Notes under the pieces: model-generated
Told to the model about the DNA's origin: nothing
What the model saw: the letters and a program-made list of their open reading frames with translations, nothing else
The model's database searches: none
Shown: piece after piece, positions 36,103-62,846 of the stretch
Layout: every line of letters begins with the position of its first letter
How positions within the stretch are numbered: the first letter of the stretch is position 1
Made by a program: the position numbers and the translations under genes
Assembly: GCF_000732945.1 (NCBI RefSeq)
Contig: NZ_CP008944.1
Coordinates: 62,001 to 126,000 of the forward strand
Length of the DNA stretch: 64,000 nucleotides
Origin: Corynebacterium atypicum
GTDB taxonomy: Bacteria > Actinomycetota > Actinomycetes > Mycobacteriales > Mycobacteriaceae
Direction: 5' to 3'

Positions 36103-38061
36103 TTAGGTCCGAGCGCCCACGACGAAGGGCCCGATCTGGGTGAGCTTCCAGTCCGAGGACTCGAAGGCCTGCGGGTTGAAGAAGACGGCGCGGTAGCGCA
36201 CGTTCGGTTGGTTGGGGTAGATGTCCTCGGACAGGTGCAGCTTGAAGGCGTCCTCGCCGGCCTGGGCGGCGTCGAGATCGGCGCGCATGATGAAGGCGTC
36301 CGGCCCGCGCCACCGGGCGCCGTCGAACTCGCCCAGCAGGGCCTCCGGATCTTCGGCCGGACCCCAGGAGGCCTCGGCCCAATGCTCGATGGTCTGGTTG
36401 CGCTGGGTATATTCGCCGAGGGGATTGGCGTAGTGGCTGGTGAAGGCCTGGAACCCAAAGTAGGGGTAGTAGCTTAAAAACCGGATTTCATCGGTGAGCA
36501 CCACCGTGTCTTCCGGCGGGTGCCCGGCTGCGCGCAGGTACTCGTCGATCTCCTGGTAGTACTGTGCGGCGTCGGGGGCGAAGCGGTCGGCGCGCTCCCC
36601 GCTGCCGTCGGTATCCGTGTAGGCGTGATCGATGTGTTCCTCGTTGCGGCTCGGAATCTGCTGGGCGTAGGCGAGCCCGCCGAGCCCCAGGATGACCACG
36701 AGCACTAAGGAGAACATCCGCCGCATCCGGGGGCTCACGCGGTCCGGGTACAGGTAGTCCGCCCCGCGGGCGCGCAGGTGGGCGAACCCCAAGATCCCGG
36801 CGGTGGCCAGCACCGCGGTGACCAGAACGTCCACCCTAAAGCCCAAAAGCGTGGTGCCCACAGCGGTGACGACCATGCTCAGCAGGATCCAGCCGTAGAA
36901 GCACACCGTGGCGCAGGCCAGAGCCCTGATATCGGGTCGGTCGAACCCGGACACAAGGTAGATGAGCCCTACCAGGCACAGCAGGCCGACCACGGTGAAC
37001 GAGAAGAATGGCAGCGGCAGCTGGGTGCCCTCCCGCGGCAGGAAGTGCATGGCCGTCGCGTGCGCGTCGTAATTTCCGGTGAGCTGCTCAAGCAAGTAGG
37101 GGCCCCACACGATGAGCGCGATGGCGATCGAGACCACGCCGGTGACCAGCAGATGCCACAGGGCGACTAGCGAGCGGCGGACGATAGCGGTGAGCAACGC
37201 GATGACCACCGCGGTGCCGGCGACCAGCGCCGTGTACAGGGTGTACATCGACGCCGAGACGCCGAGGAAGATGGCCAGGCCGCAGGAGGCAAACCAGGAG
37301 CCGTGGCTGCTGCGGCGGGCCAACAGAATCGCCGCCGGGGTACCCAGGGCGATAATCGCCGCATAGGGCTCGTCCGGGTGCATGACCAAGATGATCGCGG
37401 TGGTGGTCAAGGCGATGGCGACGCCCTGGGGCAGCGACCCGGTCAGCCGCTGCCAGACCGGTACCAGCATGCAGGCTGCGGCGGCGATTGAGATCAGCGC
37501 CCAGGGCTGGAACACCGCCCAGCCCTCTAGGCCCAAGAGGTTGGCCAGGCGGCCCCCGCCCCAGAACCAGGCCGAAGGGTAGTAGCTGGGAAGGCCCCAG
37601 TAGTTCATGTCCGCCAGGTGGGCGGTCTGCGTCATGCGCGTTAAGAATTGGGTACGAAACGCCTGGTCGACCTGCAGGCCGTCGAGGTAGAGCGCGGTGG
37701 CAGACAGCGGCAGGCCCGTGGTGGTGAGTACGAGGCCTGCCGGGCAAAGGTAGCCCACGGCCACGGTGAGCCACTGCCGCCAGCGCGGCCGCGGTGCCGG
37801 GTGGTCGCGGTCCCGGGACCACAGGGCCACGAGCACCACCGCCGCCGCGATGATCAAGACAGTGCCCGCCGTGGCCAGCGCCCGCGTGACCATCGAGGTG
37901 TTGAAGGCCGGCAGGCTCACCGCGCGCAGCACCAGCCACCCGGCCAAGGTGACCAGCGCGCCGAACCCGCCGGCTAAGACGATCGCCGCCCCGGTCGCAG
38001 GCGCCGACCAGCGATCTGTGGGAGTGGGCGAGACGGCCATGGCCGAACTGGAACTATCCAT
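36103..38061 (-). CDS. aftA: Galactan arabinofuranosyltransferase AftA
   Basis: 652 residues from ATG 38061 (GGGAG 10 bases upstream; ATG 38067 is too close to that site). About 11-13 hydrophobic helices occupy the first 470 residues, with the luminal motif MNYWGLPSYYPSAWFWGGGR near residue 150, and a soluble C-terminal domain follows. AftA adds the first arabinose residues to the galactan chain, using the DprE1/DprE2 product. Position between dprE2 and emb is as in mycobacteria and corynebacteria, which supports the name more than any single motif. Confidence 0.9.
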   Translation of the reverse strand: MDSSSSAMAVSPTPTDRWSAPATGAAIVLAGGFGALVTLAGWLVLRAVSLPAFNTSMVTRALATAGTVLIIAAAVVLVALWSRDRDHPAPRPRWRQWLTVAVGYLCPAGLVLTTTGLPLSATALYLDGLQVDQAFRTQFLTRMTQTAHLADMNYWGLPSYYPSAWFWGGGRLANLLGLEGWAVFQPWALISIAAAACMLVPVWQRLTGSLPQGVAIALTTTAIILVMHPDEPYAAIIALGTPAAILLARRSSHGSWFASCGLAIFLGVSASMYTLYTALVAGTAVVIALLTAIVRRSLVALWHLLVTGVVSIAIALIVWGPYLLEQLTGNYDAHATAMHFLPREGTQLPLPFFSFTVVGLLCLVGLIYLVSGFDRPDIRALACATVCFYGWILLSMVVTAVGTTLLGFRVDVLVTAVLATAGILGFAHLRARGADYLYPDRVSPRMRRMFSLVLVVILGLGGLAYAQQIPSRNEEHIDHAYTDTDGSGERADRFAPDAAQYYQEIDEYLRAAGHPPEDTVVLTDEIRFLSYYPYFGFQAFTSHYANPLGEYTQRNQTIEHWAEASWGPAEDPEALLGEFDGARWRGPDAFIMRADLDAAQAGEDAFKLHLSEDIYPNQPNVRYRAVFFNPQAFESSDWKLTQIGPFVVGART

Positions 38062-38115
38062 GCCCATTAGTCTCCCACAGTCACGCCCTCCGCCTGAGTC
38101 AGCCCGGAAGGTCGA

Positions 38116-40712: not shown

Positions 40713-40937
40713 CTAGAGGTCTAGCAACTCGCGGATCCGGGCGGGCAGTTCCTCTTGGCTGGTGATCGTCGGGCCCTCGTAGGAGTTGAGCTCCCGCATG
40801 ACGAGCGCCTGGCTGGTGGAATCGACCATCGGCAGCTCCTGGGCCAGCATCCGCACCATCAAATCGTTGAGTGGCAGATTTGTGCGCTGAGCAGACTCGT
40901 GCAGGCCGTCGCGTTCATCGTCTTTTCTTTGCCTCAT
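40713..40937 (-). CDS. Small conserved-looking hypothetical protein
   Basis: 74 residues, highly charged, no membrane segment. The middle NLPLNDLMVRMLAQELPMVD and the end EELPARIRELLDL look helical. No family is recognised. The start lies only 30 bases from the divergent gene at 40968, leaving little room for a leader, so a leaderless transcript is possible. Composition is that of a real protein rather than a frame shadow, but the call is tentative. Confidence 0.45.
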   Translation of the reverse strand: MRQRKDDERDGLHESAQRTNLPLNDLMVRMLAQELPMVDSTSQALVMRELNSYEGPTITSQEELPARIRELLDL

Positions 40938-40967
40938 GGGCCCAGGCTAGCGGTAACCTTGAAGCCC

Positions 40968-41615
40968 ATGACCAAGCCCCCAGCCGCCACGTCCGCTGAG
41001 CCCGGCAGCCAACCGCCAGGCGCCCCCGCCACGCACCCGGTGATCGCGGTCGTGGATAAGCAACCCGACGCCACTGTGGTCTGGCACGTGCAGACGGACC
41101 CAGAGGCTACCTCGTTTGCCGCCATCATGTCCGGCGCCTGGGTGCTCTCGGCGGCCGCCGGCGACGTCGAGCCGGGTCGCATGGAGGACCTGCTGCGCGG
41201 CACGTTCGTTGTGCGCAGCGCCAGCTACCAGGACACCGGCCAGGAGCAGTTCCCCTCGGCCGCCGGCGTGCTCCCGGGGACCGGGGCGCAGGCGCTCCAG
41301 CTGTGGGCCGAGCGCCTGGGCGCCGCGCGCGCGGAGCTGCTCGCGGCGATTAAAGACGCCGTGGCAGAAAACCCGAAGCTGAAGGCCGTGCGCCTCCCAG
41401 AGGCCCAGGTGCCGGACCCGGAGGCCCTGGCGGCGACCTACCGCGGCGAGCGGCAGGCCGAGACGGCTTGGGCGCTTGCGCGCGGCGCCGCCGAAATCGT
41501 CGAGCACTGGCACGAGCTGGAGAGCAAGCGGCGCAGCAGGGCCTACTTAAAGGCGCGCTTCGGCGAGCAAATCCGCCCAGTGCCCCTCCCCGGGACCGAG
41601 AGCAGCGCAGACTAG
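40968..41615 (+). CDS. Conserved hypothetical cytosolic protein
   Basis: 215 residues from ATG 40968. After a Pro/Ala-rich start, PVIAVVDKQPDATVVWHVQT suggests a beta-rich N-terminal part, and the second half (WAERLGAARAELLAAIKDAV; WALARGAAEIVEHWHELESK) is helical. No signal peptide or recognised domain. The frame extends upstream to 40755 but crosses the opposing small gene, so the shorter start is taken. It precedes a second unknown gene and gtrA on the same strand in the cell-wall block; the function is unknown. Confidence 0.65.
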   Translation: MTKPPAATSAEPGSQPPGAPATHPVIAVVDKQPDATVVWHVQTDPEATSFAAIMSGAWVLSAAAGDVEPGRMEDLLRGTFVVRSASYQDTGQEQFPSAAGVLPGTGAQALQLWAERLGAARAELLAAIKDAVAENPKLKAVRLPEAQVPDPEALAATYRGERQAETAWALARGAAEIVEHWHELESKRRSRAYLKARFGEQIRPVPLPGTESSAD

Positions 41616-41763: not shown

Positions 41764-42378
41764 ATGCGACCCGCAGCGCCTGGCCCATCTGGCCCCGCCC
41801 GCAGTGCTCCCGGCACCGTGGTGAGCCTGGCTTCCGCGCGCCGGGCCCGCTCGGTGGGCGGAAACTTAAGCTCTGCCGCGCGCCGAGTGCGCACCGTGGT
41901 GCTCCAGGCCGCCGGCGCGGGCCGCGACGAGGTATACCGGCACCTCGGCGTCAGCGACACCCTTTGCCTGGCCCAGCTGCGCCGCGTGCTCGATTTAAGC
42001 CTGGGATTTTTTCCCGCCGCTGCACCCGCGACCGCGCGCGAGGCCGGCGCCCGCCGCGCCGGCCCGCGGCGGGGGAGCGCGTCGCCCCAGGTGCCTCAAC
42101 TTGCCGCCGCGCAGCCGGCGTGGTGGTTTAGCCGCGACGGCGTGCCCGTCGACGCAGGCGTTCCGGTGCACCGCGTCCTGCAGGCCGACGGCGCGGAGCT
42201 CACCTACCACTGGGGGCTGTGGCTAGTGGCCGTGGGAGTGGTCAGCTCCTTTCCGCGCGAGGCGGGATCGCCGCCGGCCGTGTGCGTTGGGGGTTCCGGA
42301 AGCTTTAGTCGCGATCCCTTCGACGCGGACCGGATCAACGCTTTGCTGGCCGCGGAGCTACCCGCGGAAGTGGACTAG
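41764..42378 (+). CDS. Hypothetical protein, weakly like the pRiA4b ORF-3 family
   Basis: 204 residues. The segment VYRHLGVSDTLCLAQLRRVLDLSLGF (about 58-83, given by its ends) loosely follows the w-R-x-v-p-d-tl-x-x-Lh-x-v-i-x-x-a-x-GW signature of the PF07929 (pRiA4b ORF-3-like) fold, and a later LTYHWGLWLVAV is aromatic. The rest is Ala/Arg/Pro-rich. It ends 11 bases before gtrA, so the two are probably co-transcribed. The function is unknown and the family resemblance is uncertain. Confidence 0.55.
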   Translation: MRPAAPGPSGPARSAPGTVVSLASARRARSVGGNLSSAARRVRTVVLQAAGAGRDEVYRHLGVSDTLCLAQLRRVLDLSLGFFPAAAPATAREAGARRAGPRRGSASPQVPQLAAAQPAWWFSRDGVPVDAGVPVHRVLQADGAELTYHWGLWLVAVGVVSSFPREAGSPPAVCVGGSGSFSRDPFDADRINALLAAELPAEVD

Positions 42379-42980: not shown

Positions 42981-43892
42981 CTAGGGCCGCTCGAAGCGCT
43001 CGCGCCGGCCGAGGCGGTGCAACCGCAGCCACTCGACAAAGCCCTTCCAGTCGCGGCGCTGTACCAAGAAGAACCAGCCGAAGCGGGCGTACTCCTGCGG
43101 CAGCAGGCGGCGCATTCCGGGCTGGTTCATCAGGTATCCGCGGTTGCGGTACGTAAAGAAGCGCTTGGCGGCATTGTCTGGGTATTGGGTGTGCATCCGC
43201 CCACCGAAGATGGGCCGGAACTCCCCAGCCCCGTCCGGGTGCAGGTAGGCGGTGTTCAGCGCGGTGCCAAAGTTGAGGCCCGAGCGCGTGAGCCGGCGGT
43301 GGTACTCCACCTCGTCGCCGCGGATGAAGAGCCGGTAATCCGGCACCCCGATGACCTCCATCGCGCGCGCTGAGATCAAAGCACCGTTGAAGAGACTGGC
43401 GATGCCGGGCAGGAACTCGCCGCGCAGCTCGCTGTGGCTGCGCTTCCACTCGAGGCCCTGGCGGAGCGGAAAAGCGAGGTTATCGGGGGCGTCGATGTTG
43501 CTGACGACGGGTGAGACCTCGTGGAGGCTGTGCGACTCGGCAACCTGCATCAGGGTTTCGAGTACGTGCTCGTCGGCGGGGCGGCCGTCGTCATCGGCGC
43601 ACCAGACCGCCTGAGCGCCGAGAGCGAGTGCGGAAAGGAAACCGTAGGCGAAGCCGCCCCCGCCACCGAGGTTCGTGCGGCTGGGAAGGTAGACGCCGCG
43701 CTCGCCCGCGACCTCATCAAGCACTTCCCGTACTGCCTCCTCGCACCCGTTATCCACCACGATGATCCGGTCAACTGGGTGGGTCTGCGCGGCGACTACC
43801 TCGAGCGATCGGCGCAATAGCTGGGCACGGTGGTGCGTGACGATCACCGCGGCGACCGAGTCGGAGGAAGAAAGGCTGGGGATTGTTGTCAT
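42981..43892 (-). CDS. glfT1: Galactofuranosyltransferase GlfT1
   Basis: 303 residues, a GT2-family enzyme. The nucleotide fold begins AAVIVTHHRAQLLRRSLEVV; the metal-binding Asp cluster is CADDDGRP (Asp100-102); GGGGGFAYG near 77 and FIRGDEVEYHRRL near 215 are typical of GlfT1. It adds the first galactofuranose residues to the rhamnosyl-GlcNAc linker lipid from UDP-galactofuranose at the cytosolic membrane face. It follows wzt/wzm on the same strand as Rv3782 does, but a 198-bp gap with palindromes suggests separate control. Confidence 0.92.
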   Translation of the reverse strand: MTTIPSLSSSDSVAAVIVTHHRAQLLRRSLEVVAAQTHPVDRIIVVDNGCEEAVREVLDEVAGERGVYLPSRTNLGGGGGFAYGFLSALALGAQAVWCADDDGRPADEHVLETLMQVAESHSLHEVSPVVSNIDAPDNLAFPLRQGLEWKRSHSELRGEFLPGIASLFNGALISARAMEVIGVPDYRLFIRGDEVEYHRRLTRSGLNFGTALNTAYLHPDGAGEFRPIFGGRMHTQYPDNAAKRFFTYRNRGYLMNQPGMRRLLPQEYARFGWFFLVQRRDWKGFVEWLRLHRLGRRERFERP

Positions 43893-44090: not shown

Positions 44091-44990
44091 CTATCCTTCG
44101 GCGCCTGCGTCAGGGTCCGACCCGTCCGACTGTGCAGCGCGCCTTCTGGCTACCTGCGCCAGGTGCGCCTCCTCGTCGTCCTCGCGCACGGAAACCGCCG
44201 CCGAGTCGCCCTGGAACTGCCGGACCATCCGGCGCATGTGGGCGCCGGTCTCTGGGCCCTCGTAGGCCTCGACCACCTCGTCGACCAGCCCTACCTGGCG
44301 TACCTGGCCGTGGTCGATCCACAGCGCGGTGTTGCACAGTTGCGCCAAGAAATCGTTCGAGTGCGAGGCAAAAACGAGGATGCCCGAGCGCTTGACCATG
44401 TCCTGTAGCCGAACCCGGGCCTTGGCCATGAACGCCGCATCGACTGCCCCGATGCCTTCGTCGAGAAGCAAAATTTCCGGTTCGATGGAGGTCACCACCC
44501 CCAGGGCGAGCCGCACCCGCATGCCCGTCGAGTAGGTGCGAAGCGGCATGTTGAGGTACTCGCCGAGCTCGGAAAACTCGGCGATATCGTCCATCTTCTT
44601 TCTCATGGACCGCCGCGTCTGGCCCAAAAATAGCCCGCGGATGATGATGTTCTCGTAGCCCGAGATCTCCGGGTCCATGCCCACGCCCAGGTCAAAGACC
44701 GGGGCGACGCGCCCGCGCACCGTGGCCGAGCCGCGGGTGGGCTCGTAAATGCCGGAAAGTAGGCGCAGCAGGGTGGATTTGCCCGCCCCGTTGTGCCCGA
44801 CCAGTCCCACCCGGTCGCCCTCGCGCAGGTGCAGGCTGATGTCCTTTAAGGCCTCGACCACGACGACGTTGTTGGTGTTGCGGCCGATCGCCCCGCCGGC
44901 GGCGCCCAGGAAGGCCTTCTTCAGGGAGCGGGTTTTGGCGTCGAAAATGGGGAAGTCGACGCAGGCGTTGTGGGTATCGATGGATACCAT
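44091..44990 (-). CDS. wzt: ABC transporter ATP-binding protein for galactan export (Wzt/RfbE-like)
   Basis: 299 residues. Walker A is GHNGAGKST (65-73), the signature is YSTGMRVRLALG near 154, Walker B is ILLLDEGIGAVD near 174, and the switch His is in FASHSND. The N-terminus (VDFPIFDAKTRSLKKAFLG) is typical of polysaccharide-export ATPases. The last 50 residues are acidic and lack the carbohydrate-binding domain of O-antigen Wzt. It pairs with the permease gene starting 21 bases upstream in the same direction (Rv3781/Rv3783 counterparts), predicted to flip the lipid-linked galactan. Confidence 0.92.
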   Translation of the reverse strand: MVSIDTHNACVDFPIFDAKTRSLKKAFLGAAGGAIGRNTNNVVVVEALKDISLHLREGDRVGLVGHNGAGKSTLLRLLSGIYEPTRGSATVRGRVAPVFDLGVGMDPEISGYENIIIRGLFLGQTRRSMRKKMDDIAEFSELGEYLNMPLRTYSTGMRVRLALGVVTSIEPEILLLDEGIGAVDAAFMAKARVRLQDMVKRSGILVFASHSNDFLAQLCNTALWIDHGQVRQVGLVDEVVEAYEGPETGAHMRRMVRQFQGDSAAVSVREDDEEAHLAQVARRRAAQSDGSDPDAGAEG

Positions 44991-45011: not shown

Positions 45012-45908
45012 CTAGACCCAGTAAAAGACCCTGAAGCGCCACTGGCGCATGGCCACCAGGGCGAGGATCACGCCGGCAACGGTCATTCCGATGACGATCC
45101 ACCAATGGTAGGTGGGCAGTGGGGCGCCGATCAGCGGGGCGCGCACAATCTCCAGGTAGTGGTAGAGGGGGTTGAGCTGGGCAAGCTTCGCCCGGCCGCC
45201 CATCTCTGACATGTTTTCTTGCAGCGTGGTGGTCATCCACACGATCGGGGTGACGTAGAACAGCAGCTGGGTGCCGGCCTCGAGCAGCGGCGAGATGTCG
45301 CGGTAGCGGGTGGCCACGATGCCGAAGAACATGGCGACCCAGACCCCGTTGATGATGAGCAGCGCAAACCCGGGGATCACCAGGAGCAGGTGCCAGCCGA
45401 GCTGCCGGGGAAAGATGATCACCAAAATCAGCCAGATGACCATGTTGTGGGCCAAAAAGAGCGTCTGTTTCCACACCAGACGATAAACGTGCACCGAAAG
45501 CGCGGAAGGTAGCTGTTTAATCAGCCCTTCATTATCTATAAAGATATCTGCACCTTCTTTAATGCACCCTGAGATGAATCCCCACATAATTAGACCCACC
45601 GTCACGTGGGGTAGGAACACCTCGATGGAAACCTTGAAAAGAATCGAGTACAGCAGGCCTAAGGCGAGTGCCATGACGCCGGTGGCGATGGTGATCCAGA
45701 GCGGGCCGAGCACGCTGCGTCGGTAGCGCTGCTTGATATCCTGCCAGCCAAGTAACAGCCAGAGCTCGTGTTGCCCCAAGCCTCTGACCAGGTCTTTCCA
45801 TGCGGCCTTCATCGTGCGCGACTCGGAGGGCGGAGCGGCTTCCGCGGGCGCGGACGTCATCCTCTCGATGTCCGCGCGCAGCTGCTGGGTCTTTGTATGG
45901 TCCTGCAC
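45012..45908 (-). CDS. wzm: ABC transporter permease for galactan export (Wzm/RfbD-like)
   Basis: 298 residues. An amphipathic N-terminal part is followed by six hydrophobic segments of the ABC-2 type, starting after ELWLLLGWQDIKQRYRRSVLG, which is the typical cytosolic gate-helix sequence of Wzm proteins. Conserved YRDISPLLEAGTQLLFYVTP lies near 215. It forms the membrane channel for the ATPase encoded downstream. Start ATG 45908 faces a long divergent control region. Confidence 0.92.
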   Translation of the reverse strand: MQDHTKTQQLRADIERMTSAPAEAAPPSESRTMKAAWKDLVRGLGQHELWLLLGWQDIKQRYRRSVLGPLWITIATGVMALALGLLYSILFKVSIEVFLPHVTVGLIMWGFISGCIKEGADIFIDNEGLIKQLPSALSVHVYRLVWKQTLFLAHNMVIWLILVIIFPRQLGWHLLLVIPGFALLIINGVWVAMFFGIVATRYRDISPLLEAGTQLLFYVTPIVWMTTTLQENMSEMGGRAKLAQLNPLYHYLEIVRAPLIGAPLPTYHWWIVIGMTVAGVILALVAMRQWRFRVFYWV

Positions 45909-46271
45909 AGTTACCTAACCCTAGTCAGCCGGGGCAGCCAGCAGAAAGATTTGGGCCTCCACGGGGGCGCGAGTCGCCGCGTCAAGCTGGGGTTATGTCG
46001 GTTTTTTGAGAGGTGGGGCAAGCCTCGGCGCCGCGCCGGGCGCAGCTGCGGGGCGCTGGGGAACGGCCGCGGGGGCGCAAGAAAGTGGGGGACTATCCCT
46101 CTGCTATACCTGAGGCGGCCTCAGGGCACTAGGGTGTAGAGCAAGAAACGGTGACTTAAGCGACGCGCACCCATATTAGTTTTTCTTTTCCGTCTGACCT
46201 GGCGATGTGTTATCTCGGCGGCGGTTCGGCATACTAATGTGCGTTAATGTGCGGAATATTCAGGGAGATCT
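45909..46271. other. Divergent control region between wzm and the class V gene
   Basis: 363 bases without a gene. The right half is AT-rich (about 46165-46265) and holds a short direct repeat TAATGTGCGTTAATGTGCGG (46236-46255) just before the class V gene, likely near its promoter; GGGAG precedes that ATG. Nothing else stands out. Confidence 0.5.
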
Positions 46272-47606
46272 ATGGTTTACGACGTCCCGGAGGTTCGCGG
46301 GCAGTATGTCTCTTTAGGCGATGGCTGGACGTACCTCAATGCGCACGAGCGACCGCAGATCCCGCAGCGGGTGGCTACGGGTGTGGCGCGCGCGTTTCGA
46401 ACCTCTACGTCTCCGCTTGCGGGCAGCGGCGCGCCGACGGGCAGCCACGCCGACCACCGCGACGGGCAGTTTGAGGGGCATTTGCACATCAGCGCGGCGC
46501 GGCGGGCGATCGCGGATCTGGTGGGTGGCTCTGCGCGCGCCGTCGTGCTCGGCCCCAGCTTGGAGGCCCTCTACGGCATGCTCGCACGCGCGATGGGCCC
46601 GATGCTCCGGCGCGGCTCGCAGGTGTTGCTGAGCAACCTGGATCGCCCGCAGCTTTCCCACCAACTGAGCCAGGCCAGCGTCAATGCGGTGTGGGCGCAG
46701 CCGGACCTGGCCACCGGCGAACTGCCGGCCTTCCAATTCGCGGAGCTAGTCGATCCGGCCACCAGGTTGGTCGCGTTTCCGGCGGCGCAGGATTTGCTCG
46801 GGACGGTGACCCCCGTCGCGGAGATCACCGACATGGTGCATGAGGCGGCCCGCTCGTGGGTGCTTGTCGACGCCACGGCCTACGCCTGCTACCGGCCGGT
46901 GGACATGTCGGAGTGGGGCGCGGACATCGTGGGCGTTGACCTGGCGCGGCTGGGTGGGCCGCGGATCGCGGCGCTGGTCTTCCGCGACGAGCTGATGCTC
47001 AACCGGCTCGATCCGGTGGATCCGATGGCGGAGCGCGGCAGCGTGGAGGCCCTCGAAACCCCGGTGTCTGAGGGGCTGGCGGGCGGGGTCTCCCCGCTGG
47101 TGGATCACCTGGCTAACCTCGCCCGCCGCGGCGGGCACCAGGGCGCAGGCAGCTACGGTGGGCGGCGCAGCGCGTCCCGGGCCGGGTGGGCCGCCGGGGA
47201 GGGCTCTGGTGGCGGCCAGGCCGGGCCCGCGCTGTCTAGGCGCGAGCGGCTGATTTACTCCATGGGTGAGATGTCGACCTACCTGCAGGACCTGGGCCGG
47301 GACTTGGAGACGTTTATAGGGTCGCTGCCGTCGGTACACATATTGGGCGTCAGTGGCGAGGCCGCCCAGGGCTCGCACAACGATCGGGTGCCGCGCATCT
47401 CGTTCGCGGTGCGCGGCGTTCCCGCGCGCACGGTCTACCAGCGCCTCCTAGATAACGGCCTGGTCACCACCGTCACGCCGGTGACGCCCCTGGTGCGCGA
47501 GATGGGGGCCGAGGAGATCGGCGGCGCGGTGACAGTGTCGTTGGCGCCGTTTAACCAGGATCACGATATAGAGCATCTGACGCGGGTGGTGGCCTCGCTC
47601 GCCTAG
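46272..47606 (+). CDS. Cysteine-desulfurase-like (class V aminotransferase fold) protein lacking all lysines
   Basis: 444 residues, equivalent in position to mycobacterial Rv3778c. The fold-type I pattern is visible: LGPSLEALYGMLARAM, the cofactor-binding-like VLVDATAYACYRPVDMSEWG, then ADIVGVDLARLGGPRIAALV, which aligns with the segment that normally carries the Schiff-base lysine (S-x-Y-K-x-x-G-P). Here that residue is Arg, and I find no lysine anywhere in the protein. It therefore cannot form the usual internal aldimine with PLP and is probably a non-catalytic or structural homologue. A Gly/Arg/Ala-rich insertion lies near 290-320. The function is unknown. Confidence 0.88.
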   Translation: MVYDVPEVRGQYVSLGDGWTYLNAHERPQIPQRVATGVARAFRTSTSPLAGSGAPTGSHADHRDGQFEGHLHISAARRAIADLVGGSARAVVLGPSLEALYGMLARAMGPMLRRGSQVLLSNLDRPQLSHQLSQASVNAVWAQPDLATGELPAFQFAELVDPATRLVAFPAAQDLLGTVTPVAEITDMVHEAARSWVLVDATAYACYRPVDMSEWGADIVGVDLARLGGPRIAALVFRDELMLNRLDPVDPMAERGSVEALETPVSEGLAGGVSPLVDHLANLARRGGHQGAGSYGGRRSASRAGWAAGEGSGGGQAGPALSRRERLIYSMGEMSTYLQDLGRDLETFIGSLPSVHILGVSGEAAQGSHNDRVPRISFAVRGVPARTVYQRLLDNGLVTTVTPVTPLVREMGAEEIGGAVTVSLAPFNQDHDIEHLTRVVASLA

Positions 47607-47631: not shown

Positions 47632-48639
47632 CTAGCTGGCGACGCGTAGTGCCAGCTTGCCGGTCACCTTGCCGGAGTCAAGCGTGCGGTGGGCGAGCGC
47701 GGCGTCGGCAAGCGGGAAGACCTGGTGCACGTGGTGCCGGATGGCGCCGGCCTCGACCAGGGGCCACACGTTGGCGACGGTGCTGGCGACGATACGCGAT
47801 TTATCAGCAACCGAGCGGGCGCGCAGCGTGGTGCCGTGGATGCTCAGGCGGCGGGGGAGGAGAGACCCGAGGTTGATTTCGGCCTTGGTGCCGCCCTGCA
47901 TGCCGATGATGATGAGCTGGCCGTCCGGGGCAAGCGCGCGCAGGTTGCCCTTCAAATACTTCGCCCCGATGATATCGAGGATCACGTTCACCGAGCCCTT
48001 CAGCCCCTCGGAAAAGTCCTGCTCGTGGTAGTTGATCAGCTCGGTGGCGCCGAGCTTGCGGCAGTAATCGAGCTTGTCCGGGGAGCCCGCGGTGACCGCC
48101 ACGTCCAGCCCGAGAGCCGCGCACAGCTGGATGGCGAAGCTGCCCACGCCGCCTGCGCCGCCGTGGATGAGCACCCGCTTGGGCGCAGCGCCGTGGTCCC
48201 CAGCGTTTTGTTCCCTCGGGTTTTGCTCGCCCAGCCTGGCGACCATGCCGAGGTTGGACCACACGGTGCAGGCGACCTCCATAAGCGAGCCCAGTTCGTC
48301 CACCGTCAGGCCTGCCGGCAGGGGCGCGGTCTGCCCAGCAGGTACGGCAACGTACTCGGCGTAGCCGCCTCCCGCGAGCAGGCAGCCGACGGGCGAGCCC
48401 ACGGCAGGCCCGCGCCCGGCGCGATTTTCGACGATGGTGCCGGCGCACTCCATGCCGAGGATTTGGGAGGCCCCGGGCGGGGGCGGGTAGTGGCCACGCG
48501 TCTGCAGAATGTCGCCGCGGTTGACGCCAGCGGTGTGGACCTTGACCAGTAGCTCTCCCTCGGCCGGTGTGGGGGTGGGCACCTCGGCCAGCTGCAGGCT
48601 GGCGGGGTCTTTGGGGTCGGTTTGCACGATTGCCTTCAT
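47632..48639 (-). CDS. Zinc-free MDR oxidoreductase, quinone reductase-like (Rv3777-like)
   Basis: 335 residues. The N-terminal GroES-like domain has GVNRGDILQTRGHYPPPPGA and LGMECAGTIVENR; the NADPH motif is HGGAGGVGSFAIQLC (about 160-174). There are no zinc ligands, as in quinone oxidoreductases (QOR/PIG3 type). The C-terminal HQVFPLADAALAHRTLDSGK is typical. It is a cytosolic NADPH-dependent reductase with unknown natural substrate, convergent with the class V gene as Rv3777 is with Rv3778c. Confidence 0.88.
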   Translation of the reverse strand: MKAIVQTDPKDPASLQLAEVPTPTPAEGELLVKVHTAGVNRGDILQTRGHYPPPPGASQILGMECAGTIVENRAGRGPAVGSPVGCLLAGGGYAEYVAVPAGQTAPLPAGLTVDELGSLMEVACTVWSNLGMVARLGEQNPREQNAGDHGAAPKRVLIHGGAGGVGSFAIQLCAALGLDVAVTAGSPDKLDYCRKLGATELINYHEQDFSEGLKGSVNVILDIIGAKYLKGNLRALAPDGQLIIIGMQGGTKAEINLGSLLPRRLSIHGTTLRARSVADKSRIVASTVANVWPLVEAGAIRHHVHQVFPLADAALAHRTLDSGKVTGKLALRVAS

Positions 48640-61290: not shown

Positions 61291-62846
61291 ATGAACGTCT
61301 TTAAGAAAGCGCTGGTTGCCACGGTGGCGTCAGCCTTCGTCGTCAGTGGCGGAGGCGTCATGGCGACCGCGCAGCCGGCCGGCAATCCAGCCACGAACGC
61401 GCAGGCAGCGGCAGCATCCATCGATGCGTCGCGCACCGCCACGTTGCACATCCACAAGTACAGTGGCGACCCCGTGCCAGGCGCTCAAAACAACGGCCTC
61501 GAGCAGACGGTGACTGGACAGCGTGACCCACTGGCGGGTGCTCAATTCCGTATTGAGCGGGTGACCAACGTCGATCTGACAACCGCAGCAGGCTGGCTGC
61601 AAGCCGAGCAGATTGCGAAGAACGCTGAAGGTGCACCCACTCCCACCTTCGGCGAGGGTCAGTCAGTCACCACCGATCAGAACGGTGCGGCGACCGTCAA
61701 CAACCTTCCGTTGGGTCTCTACCGAGTTACCGAGGTAGCAGCACCAGCTCGACACACCAAGGCCGAGCCCTTCTTTGTGACGCTTCCGCTGACGCACCCG
61801 CAGGAGCGCAACGCCTGGCTCTATGACGTTCACGTCTATCCGAAGAACAAGAAGGACGATCGCCCGCTGACCAAGACAGTGGCGGACGCGAACAAGAACG
61901 CCGGTGACGTGATTGACTACCGCCTTTCTTCTCCGATCCCGGATTATGAGAGGCTCGCTCGCTTCCAGATTCAGGACGTCTATCCGCAGGATCGCCTGGA
62001 ATTCCCCGACCAGGGCCAGGAAGGTCGCAAGGTTGAGGTCACCGCTGGCGGCACCACCATGACCGAGGGCACTGACTACGTGGTTACTGACAACGCGCCT
62101 CAGCCCGGCCGCCTGACCATCGCGTTTACCCGGGCGGGCCTGGACAAGTTGGACGCCCTGCCGCGAGGTGAGAATCCTGACCAGCGCCAGGTGAACGTGG
62201 TCTTGAGCTTCCGCGTTAAGGAAGTCACGGGTGAGACCTTGGGCCCGATCGAGAACACCTTCAACGTGGTCGAGAATCCGGACGGCGATCCGTCGGTCCC
62301 ACCGAACACTCCGCCGGAAACTCCGGCCAATCCGCCGGCGAACCCGCCGACGCCTGAGGAGACGCCGAAGACCTACCACGGCAACGTGAGGGTAATCAAG
62401 AAGAACAGCGGAGATGAAAACCTGGCGGGAGTTGAGTTCGATGTCTTCCGCTGCAATGACGCCAACAGCCTGCAAGGCGACGCGATCAAGAGGTCACTAC
62501 CGGAGAAAACGGTGAAGCGCTGATTCAGGGCCTGCACGTTAACGACTTTGTCGATGGCGCTGCCGGCACGTCGACACCGTCTGGCTACTGCTTGGTGGAG
62601 ACGAAGTCCCCCGAAGGCTACGAGCTGCAGCCCGGGCCGATCTACTTCCAGGTGCTCCGCGGAAGCGGGGATGTAGACACTGTGGCTCTGGTCAGCCAAA
62701 CCGTGACCGACGTTCCCAACAACGGCGGCTTCAACCTGCCGCTGACGGGTGGCAACGGCGTCTGGCTGATCCTGGCCGTCGGCGGTCTGCTGGTGGTCAT
62801 GGGTGGCGGCTACTACTACGTGGCTAAGCGCCGCGAGACGGCCTAG
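61291..62846 (+). pseudogene. Shaft pilin (SpaA/SpaH type), LPLTG, disrupted by a one-base frameshift
   Basis: The first frame gives a signal peptide (cleavage near ATAQPA), the pilin motif WLYDVHVYPK with the linking Lys185, several CnaB-type Ig domains and a Pro-rich spacer (about 345-370), then stops after KTVKR at 62523. In another frame the protein continues VTTGENGEALIQGL, the E-box GYCLVETKSPEGYEL, the sorting signal LPLTGG, a membrane helix and a KRRE tail to 62846. One missing G near 62492 (AGGTC for AGGGTC) explains this and restores 518 residues. Sortase polymerises such pilins covalently through Lys185 and the LPxTG threonine. Without the C-terminus the product would be secreted and not polymerised. 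Confidence 0.9.

Follow-up and report, generated by a model that had tools for sequence, protein, structure and literature searches.

A lysine-free class V aminotransferase-fold protein of Corynebacterium atypicum, related to Rv3778c, is probably an ancient pseudoenzyme

The stretch of Corynebacterium atypicum DNA analysed here, a window of 64,000 nucleotides from contig NZ_CP008944.1, encodes at 46272–47606 (+) a 444-residue class V aminotransferase-fold protein without lysine, which translation, domain profiles, PDB match and predicted structure group with Mycobacterium tuberculosis Rv3778c. We propose, with a probability of about 0.78, that this protein is an ancient pseudoenzyme: it would descend by vertical inheritance from a class V pyridoxal 5'-phosphate (PLP) enzyme, have lost catalysis and work by binding. 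The ancestor would have been a lysine-bearing, cysteine-desulfurase-like PLP enzyme of the TIGR01976 type, encoded beside a quinone oxidoreductase gene. The fold would have been retained under selection while the PLP site was dismantled, and the protein would now act not through PLP chemistry but by binding another protein, or a small molecule in the former pocket around Asp200. The proposal builds on direct observations, namely the absence of lysine, its family-wide loss at the active site, the erosion of that site, a confidently predicted fold, purifying selection and the gene order. Since the fold is kept and selected while the PLP site is dismantled, binding is the most likely mode of action; the protein presumably binds no PLP and may serve as a scaffold or sensor.

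Assignment to the class V fold is provided by Pfam, where Aminotran_5 (PF00266) matches with 52.8 bits against a cut-off of 21.5. The top NCBIfam profile is TIGR01976 (cysteine desulfurase-like), which covers residues 3–439 with 197.3 bits and falls well below its curated equivalog cut-off of 352.35. The closest solved chain is 3cai, Rv3778c itself, which has the same fold over the full length. Fold, tree and gene order together support placing the window protein with Rv3778c, in agreement with the initial annotation, which had assigned it to the Rv3778c position.

Translation confirmed the open reading frame, its length, the complete absence of lysine and the segment ADIVGVDLARLGGPRI, which is the region of the lost Schiff-base lysine, all as first described. 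In an alignment with SufS from the same genome, Arg226 (46947–46949, +) pairs with the lysine of the SGHK motif, so that the Schiff-base lysine of PLP-dependent class V enzymes is indeed replaced by arginine. The remainder of the site has also changed. Position 125, whose equivalent we take to be the PLP-stacking histidine, is arginine (46644–46646, +), where 35 of 36 lysine-bearing relatives have histidine; Asp223 (46938–46940, +) occupies the place of a serine and Thr421 (47532–47534, +) that of an arginine, each found in 35/36 of the same relatives. The C-terminal loop cysteine of the SufS, presumably the catalytic cysteine of cysteine desulfurases, faces a gap, and the single cysteine of the window protein is residue 206. 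Asp200 (46869–46871, +), whose equivalent we assume to contact the pyridine nitrogen in active relatives, is kept in 140/141 sequences of the main clade defined below. Without a lysine the PLP-lysine aldimine cannot form, and with other PLP-site residues and the desulfurase cysteine gone as well, the protein is very unlikely to act as a desulfurase or aminotransferase, in line with the original claim that it is neither.

The loss is not confined to this protein. The family set comprised 189 distinct sequences: 36 lysine-bearing relatives, nine from family f2, three from genus g37 of family f16, and a main clade of 141 that includes the window protein and 3cai and has members in Corynebacterium, Gordonia, Williamsia, Actinokineospora, Saccharomonospora, Actinophytocola and others. 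The Schiff-base lysine is absent from 139 of the 141, Rv3778c included, and present at the column in two; the column holds A, S, E, R, Q, P, L, V, T, G, K, M or H. The stacking histidine, Ser223 and Arg421 are mostly lost in this clade too. The check proposed in the initial annotation, whether lysine is lost throughout Rv3778c and its orthologues, is thereby answered, and a loss peculiar to the C. atypicum protein, as which it had been presented, is rejected. All nine sampled f2 orthologues (L035, L172, L173, L175 and L223–L227) have lost the lysine and part of the site, and some of them are lysine-free over the matched part. The three f16-g37 orthologues (L165, L166 and L215) have lost it as well, to threonine twice and to arginine once, with the rest of the site mostly intact; L215 has no lysine in its matched part. 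The family forms a graded series: the site is conserved in 36 sequences, mostly intact but without the lysine in three (f16-g37), partly eroded in nine (f2) and fully eroded in the 141 of the main clade.

Phylogenetic analysis suggests that the loss recurred. A careful unrooted tree was built from 55 of the 189 sequences, thinned by identity and with the columns of residues 221–232 left out. The main clade (22 rows, including 3cai and the window protein) lies on one side of a branch separating it from the lysine-bearing relatives (support 100/99), and f2 branches next to it (99/93). The three f16-g37 orthologues nest among lysine-bearing f16 sequences (100/98), with support of only 88/51 for the three as a unit. 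A single clade of all lysine-lost sequences, a group named for the approximately unbiased test after a quick tree had been seen, was rejected (p = 0.00077, log-likelihood 69.4 lower). As these sequences do not form one clade, lysine was likely lost at least twice, once with a mostly intact site; the main clade and f2 may share one loss, and the count would then still be at least two. Regain of lysine, which an unrooted tree would otherwise allow, is implausible because the whole site would need rebuilding.

Selection on the main clade is purifying (median pairwise dN/dS, the ratio of nonsynonymous to synonymous substitution rates, 0.12), whereas the lysine-bearing pairs (n = 6) have a higher median of 0.255. 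In the genomes searched, the strong matches listed have uninterrupted reading frames. The window protein thus has the features of a pseudoenzyme, its catalytic residues gone while the fold and purifying selection are kept.

Several observations weigh against this reading. PLP, pyridoxamine phosphate or another ligand could bind non-covalently, and the gene order may reflect mere shared history rather than partnership. The dN/dS pairs are not independent of each other. Two f14 genomes (G098 and G140) have the galactan exporter and only weak matches to the gene. Lysine stands at the column in the two main-clade sequences and in 11 of the 120 close homologues examined (the matches listed, of 403). 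Such orthologues were one half of a condition that the initial annotation thought might overturn its view, the other half being a local sequence error; they exist, but all 11 have replaced the stacking histidine, Ser223 and Arg421, and restored catalysis in these corynebacteria was rejected. Finally, the near-invariance of Asp200 in the main clade and of Tyr101, Asp223, Tyr207 and Thr421 among the 120 matches listed (119, 118, 110 and 120, with Asp200 in 117) means that the pocket may be retooled and not idle. We tentatively consider, as a possibility well short of even odds, that the qor-side orthologue had a second, non-PLP job before lysine was lost, since lineages that do not form one clade lost the lysine yet kept the gene, the fold and mostly the neighbour; in Corynebacterium the pocket would later have been rebuilt at Asp223, Thr421, Tyr101 and Tyr207, giving a sensor or adaptor with a role in assembling the envelope.

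The same pocket could be taken to mark a new, PLP-independent enzyme, relined in corynebacteria at Asp200, Asp223, Tyr101, Tyr207 and Thr421 for other chemistry. Near-fixation of these five positions (110–120 of the 120) and purifying selection on the gene are consistent with this, but it is unlikely: when all main-clade sequences are compared, conservation of the site columns does not exceed background, and position 223 is asparagine in 3cai and serine in Actinokineospora, which still has arginine at 421. Variation at 223 and 421 implies that no single new catalytic set is held in common. In this comparison the 11-column site set was picked after the contrast was seen, and the eight-column set was taken from SufS by recall, its position 97 being poorly conserved in the lysine-bearing relatives (Met in 23/36). 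ColD, a His-based dehydratase, performs PLP chemistry without a Schiff-base lysine, and a comparable mechanism might be argued from the retention of Asp200 and from the f16-g37 orthologues, in which lysine is lost and most of the site intact. That the window protein is still such an enzyme is nevertheless very doubtful, as no fixed substitute for lysine is seen (13 residue types at the column), the stacking histidine, Ser223 and Arg421 are mostly gone too, and the window protein has no lysine anywhere.

The total absence of lysine is extreme for the genome and ordinary in the protein's own family. In a background sample of 245 open reading frames of at least 150 residues (taken from the window and a further 320 kb of genome samples, and filtered by GC content at codon positions), lysine makes up 2.9% of residues and three frames are lysine-free; the window protein is the only lysine-free one among the 143 of at least 300 residues. 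This last figure favours selection for zero lysine itself, as an escape from acylation, pupylation and lysine-directed proteolysis, which the initial annotation had raised. However, 119 homologues among the matches listed carry 0–9 lysines (mean 3.1, 0.76%), six of them none, and at this family rate the probability of zero lysine in 444 residues is 0.034. Lysine-bearing family enzymes are lysine-poor too, to the extent that in L036 the catalytic lysine is the sole one, and two columns with lysine in 59 and 39 of the 120 matches listed indicate that it is tolerated. The window protein thus represents the tail of a lysine-poor family, so selection for being lysine-free is unsupported and highly improbable, and the total absence is mostly a side effect of that background. 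Least credible of all, and practically negligible, is a local sequencing error or a decaying pseudogene, for which nothing speaks beyond the departure from the annotation class. A near-identical database record (443/444 residues), probably but not certainly independent of the window sequence, is also lysine-free, and sequence error was rejected on this record; the open frames in the strong matches listed, the dN/dS of about 0.12 and the confident predicted fold also argue against this reading.

The pseudoenzyme reading is also informed by the gene neighbourhood. The locus order is emb-aftA-dprE2-dprE1-...-glfT1-wzt-wzm-[gene]-qor-yhdH-hisC2, where emb, aftA, dprE1 and dprE2 were named from domains and position. 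The convergent neighbour qor (47632–48639, –), a PIG3-family NAD(P)H quinone oxidoreductase by domain profiles and the neighbourhood survey, presumably corresponds to Rv3777. Domain profiles identify the galactan export ATP-binding cassette permease wzm (45012–45908, –), its ATPase wzt (44091–44990, –) and the galactofuranosyltransferase glfT1 (42981–43892, –). The window thus has the convergent qor and galactan export genes that we take to surround Rv3778c itself. A simple sigma-70 scan of the region between the gene and the divergent wzm (45909–46271) found no site, and a promoter/terminator scan gave nothing.

A convergent PIG3-type qor lies beside the gene at 127 of 138 judgeable main-clade loci, 12/13 f16 lysine-bearing, 3/3 f16-g37, 6/9 f2 and 6/23 other lysine-bearing loci. 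At least one of wzm, wzt and glfT1 lies in the flank (up to 8 kb) at 85/95 main-clade loci versus 0/24 others, and at none of the six judgeable f16 lysine-bearing loci. Being more widely shared, qor is probably the older genetic companion, its pairing probably predating the lysine loss; the galactan export/GlfT1 block would have joined later, probably with the main clade. The cell-wall block as original partner was rejected on the same counts. Membership in a cell-wall block, as initially annotated, holds for most main-clade loci, but the link is weaker than assumed because qor also flanks lysine-bearing orthologues whose judgeable loci lack wzm, wzt and glfT1. Co-occurrence was surveyed in 150 genomes of the order, with the galactan exporter scored by the NF050109 cut-off and matches of the gene to alignment A1 by a threshold of 343 bits. 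All 36 genomes whose match reaches that threshold (35 read as lysine-less, G138 by score only) exceed the NF050109 cut-off, as do 11 of the remaining 114 (six lysine-bearing f16, three lysine-lost f16 and two f14) and none of the nine f2 lysine-lost genomes; strict co-occurrence is thus not borne out.

Elsewhere in the window, a 204-residue open reading frame adjoining a GtrA gene (41764–42378, +) is likewise lysine-free; neither Pfam nor NCBIfam matches it, and relatives occupy the corresponding position in some other corynebacteria. Upstream of it, 40755–41615 (+) matches DUF6218 below threshold, at 22.9 bits against a cut-off of 26.8. The AftA homologue (36103–38067, –) has two lysines in 654 residues, and 61291–62523 (+) encodes a pilin-like surface protein (GramPos_pilinD1 and SpaA domains).

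Lysine loss as such is already known for Rv3778c: a passage of a 2026 review (PMC12910592) describes it as an expressed, nonessential, noncatalytic cysteine desulfurase relative, as the PLP lysine is absent. A passage of a transposon sequencing paper, in conflict with this, lists Rv3778c as consistently required. Excerpts from other papers report a PhoP chromatin immunoprecipitation signal at Rv3778c/Rv3779 (PMC4038636), tabulate Rv3778c with the proteins that change under zinc limitation, its sign positive as for Glf (PMC8121289), count Rv3778 as an aminotransferase homologue whose specificity is unknown (PMC4569260) and predict that a conserved small RNA lies between Rv3778c and Rv3779 (PMC3388012). 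The passages retrieved from PMC10951656 (galactan assembly) contain none on an Rv3778c-type protein, those of PMC7775120 (a C. glutamicum envelope screen) reached via another gene's locus tag do not name the orthologue, and those of PMC6522883 hold nothing relevant on recurrent lysine loss. What the present analysis appears to add is the recurrence of the loss, the stepwise erosion of the site and the qor neighbour that the groups have in common. Public records label many family members as aminotransferases or cysteine desulfurases, activities that should not be assigned to them. With its conservation, its apparent lack of catalysis, the purifying selection on it and the conflicting essentiality reports, this protein lends itself well to functional study, and the series from conserved site to full erosion offers a graded record of the change from enzyme to pseudoenzyme.

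Comparison with known systems places the window protein closest to Rv3778c (3cai, 'possible aminotransferase'), which, unlike it, is not lysine-free, with five lysines in the compared part, and has asparagine instead of aspartate at 223. A Gly/Arg-rich insert of the window protein (residues 289–314; 47136–47213, +), identified by structure prediction and alignments and of low confidence (predicted local distance difference test score <50), is not seen in the compared part of 3cai, nor in the aligned lysine-bearing relatives. The aminotransferase-like FGM3 (PDB 9x4u), the second-best PDB sequence match (residues 76–235), retains its lysine (WYKVYGP), unlike the window protein. Relative to SufS-type enzymes, both the solved SufS and that of the same genome, it lacks the PLP lysine, the stacking histidine, the loop cysteine and the carboxylate-side arginine, roles that we assume for the aligned columns. 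From the TIGR01976 (VC1184) type, its best NCBIfam profile, it differs in missing the Schiff-base lysine and most site residues.
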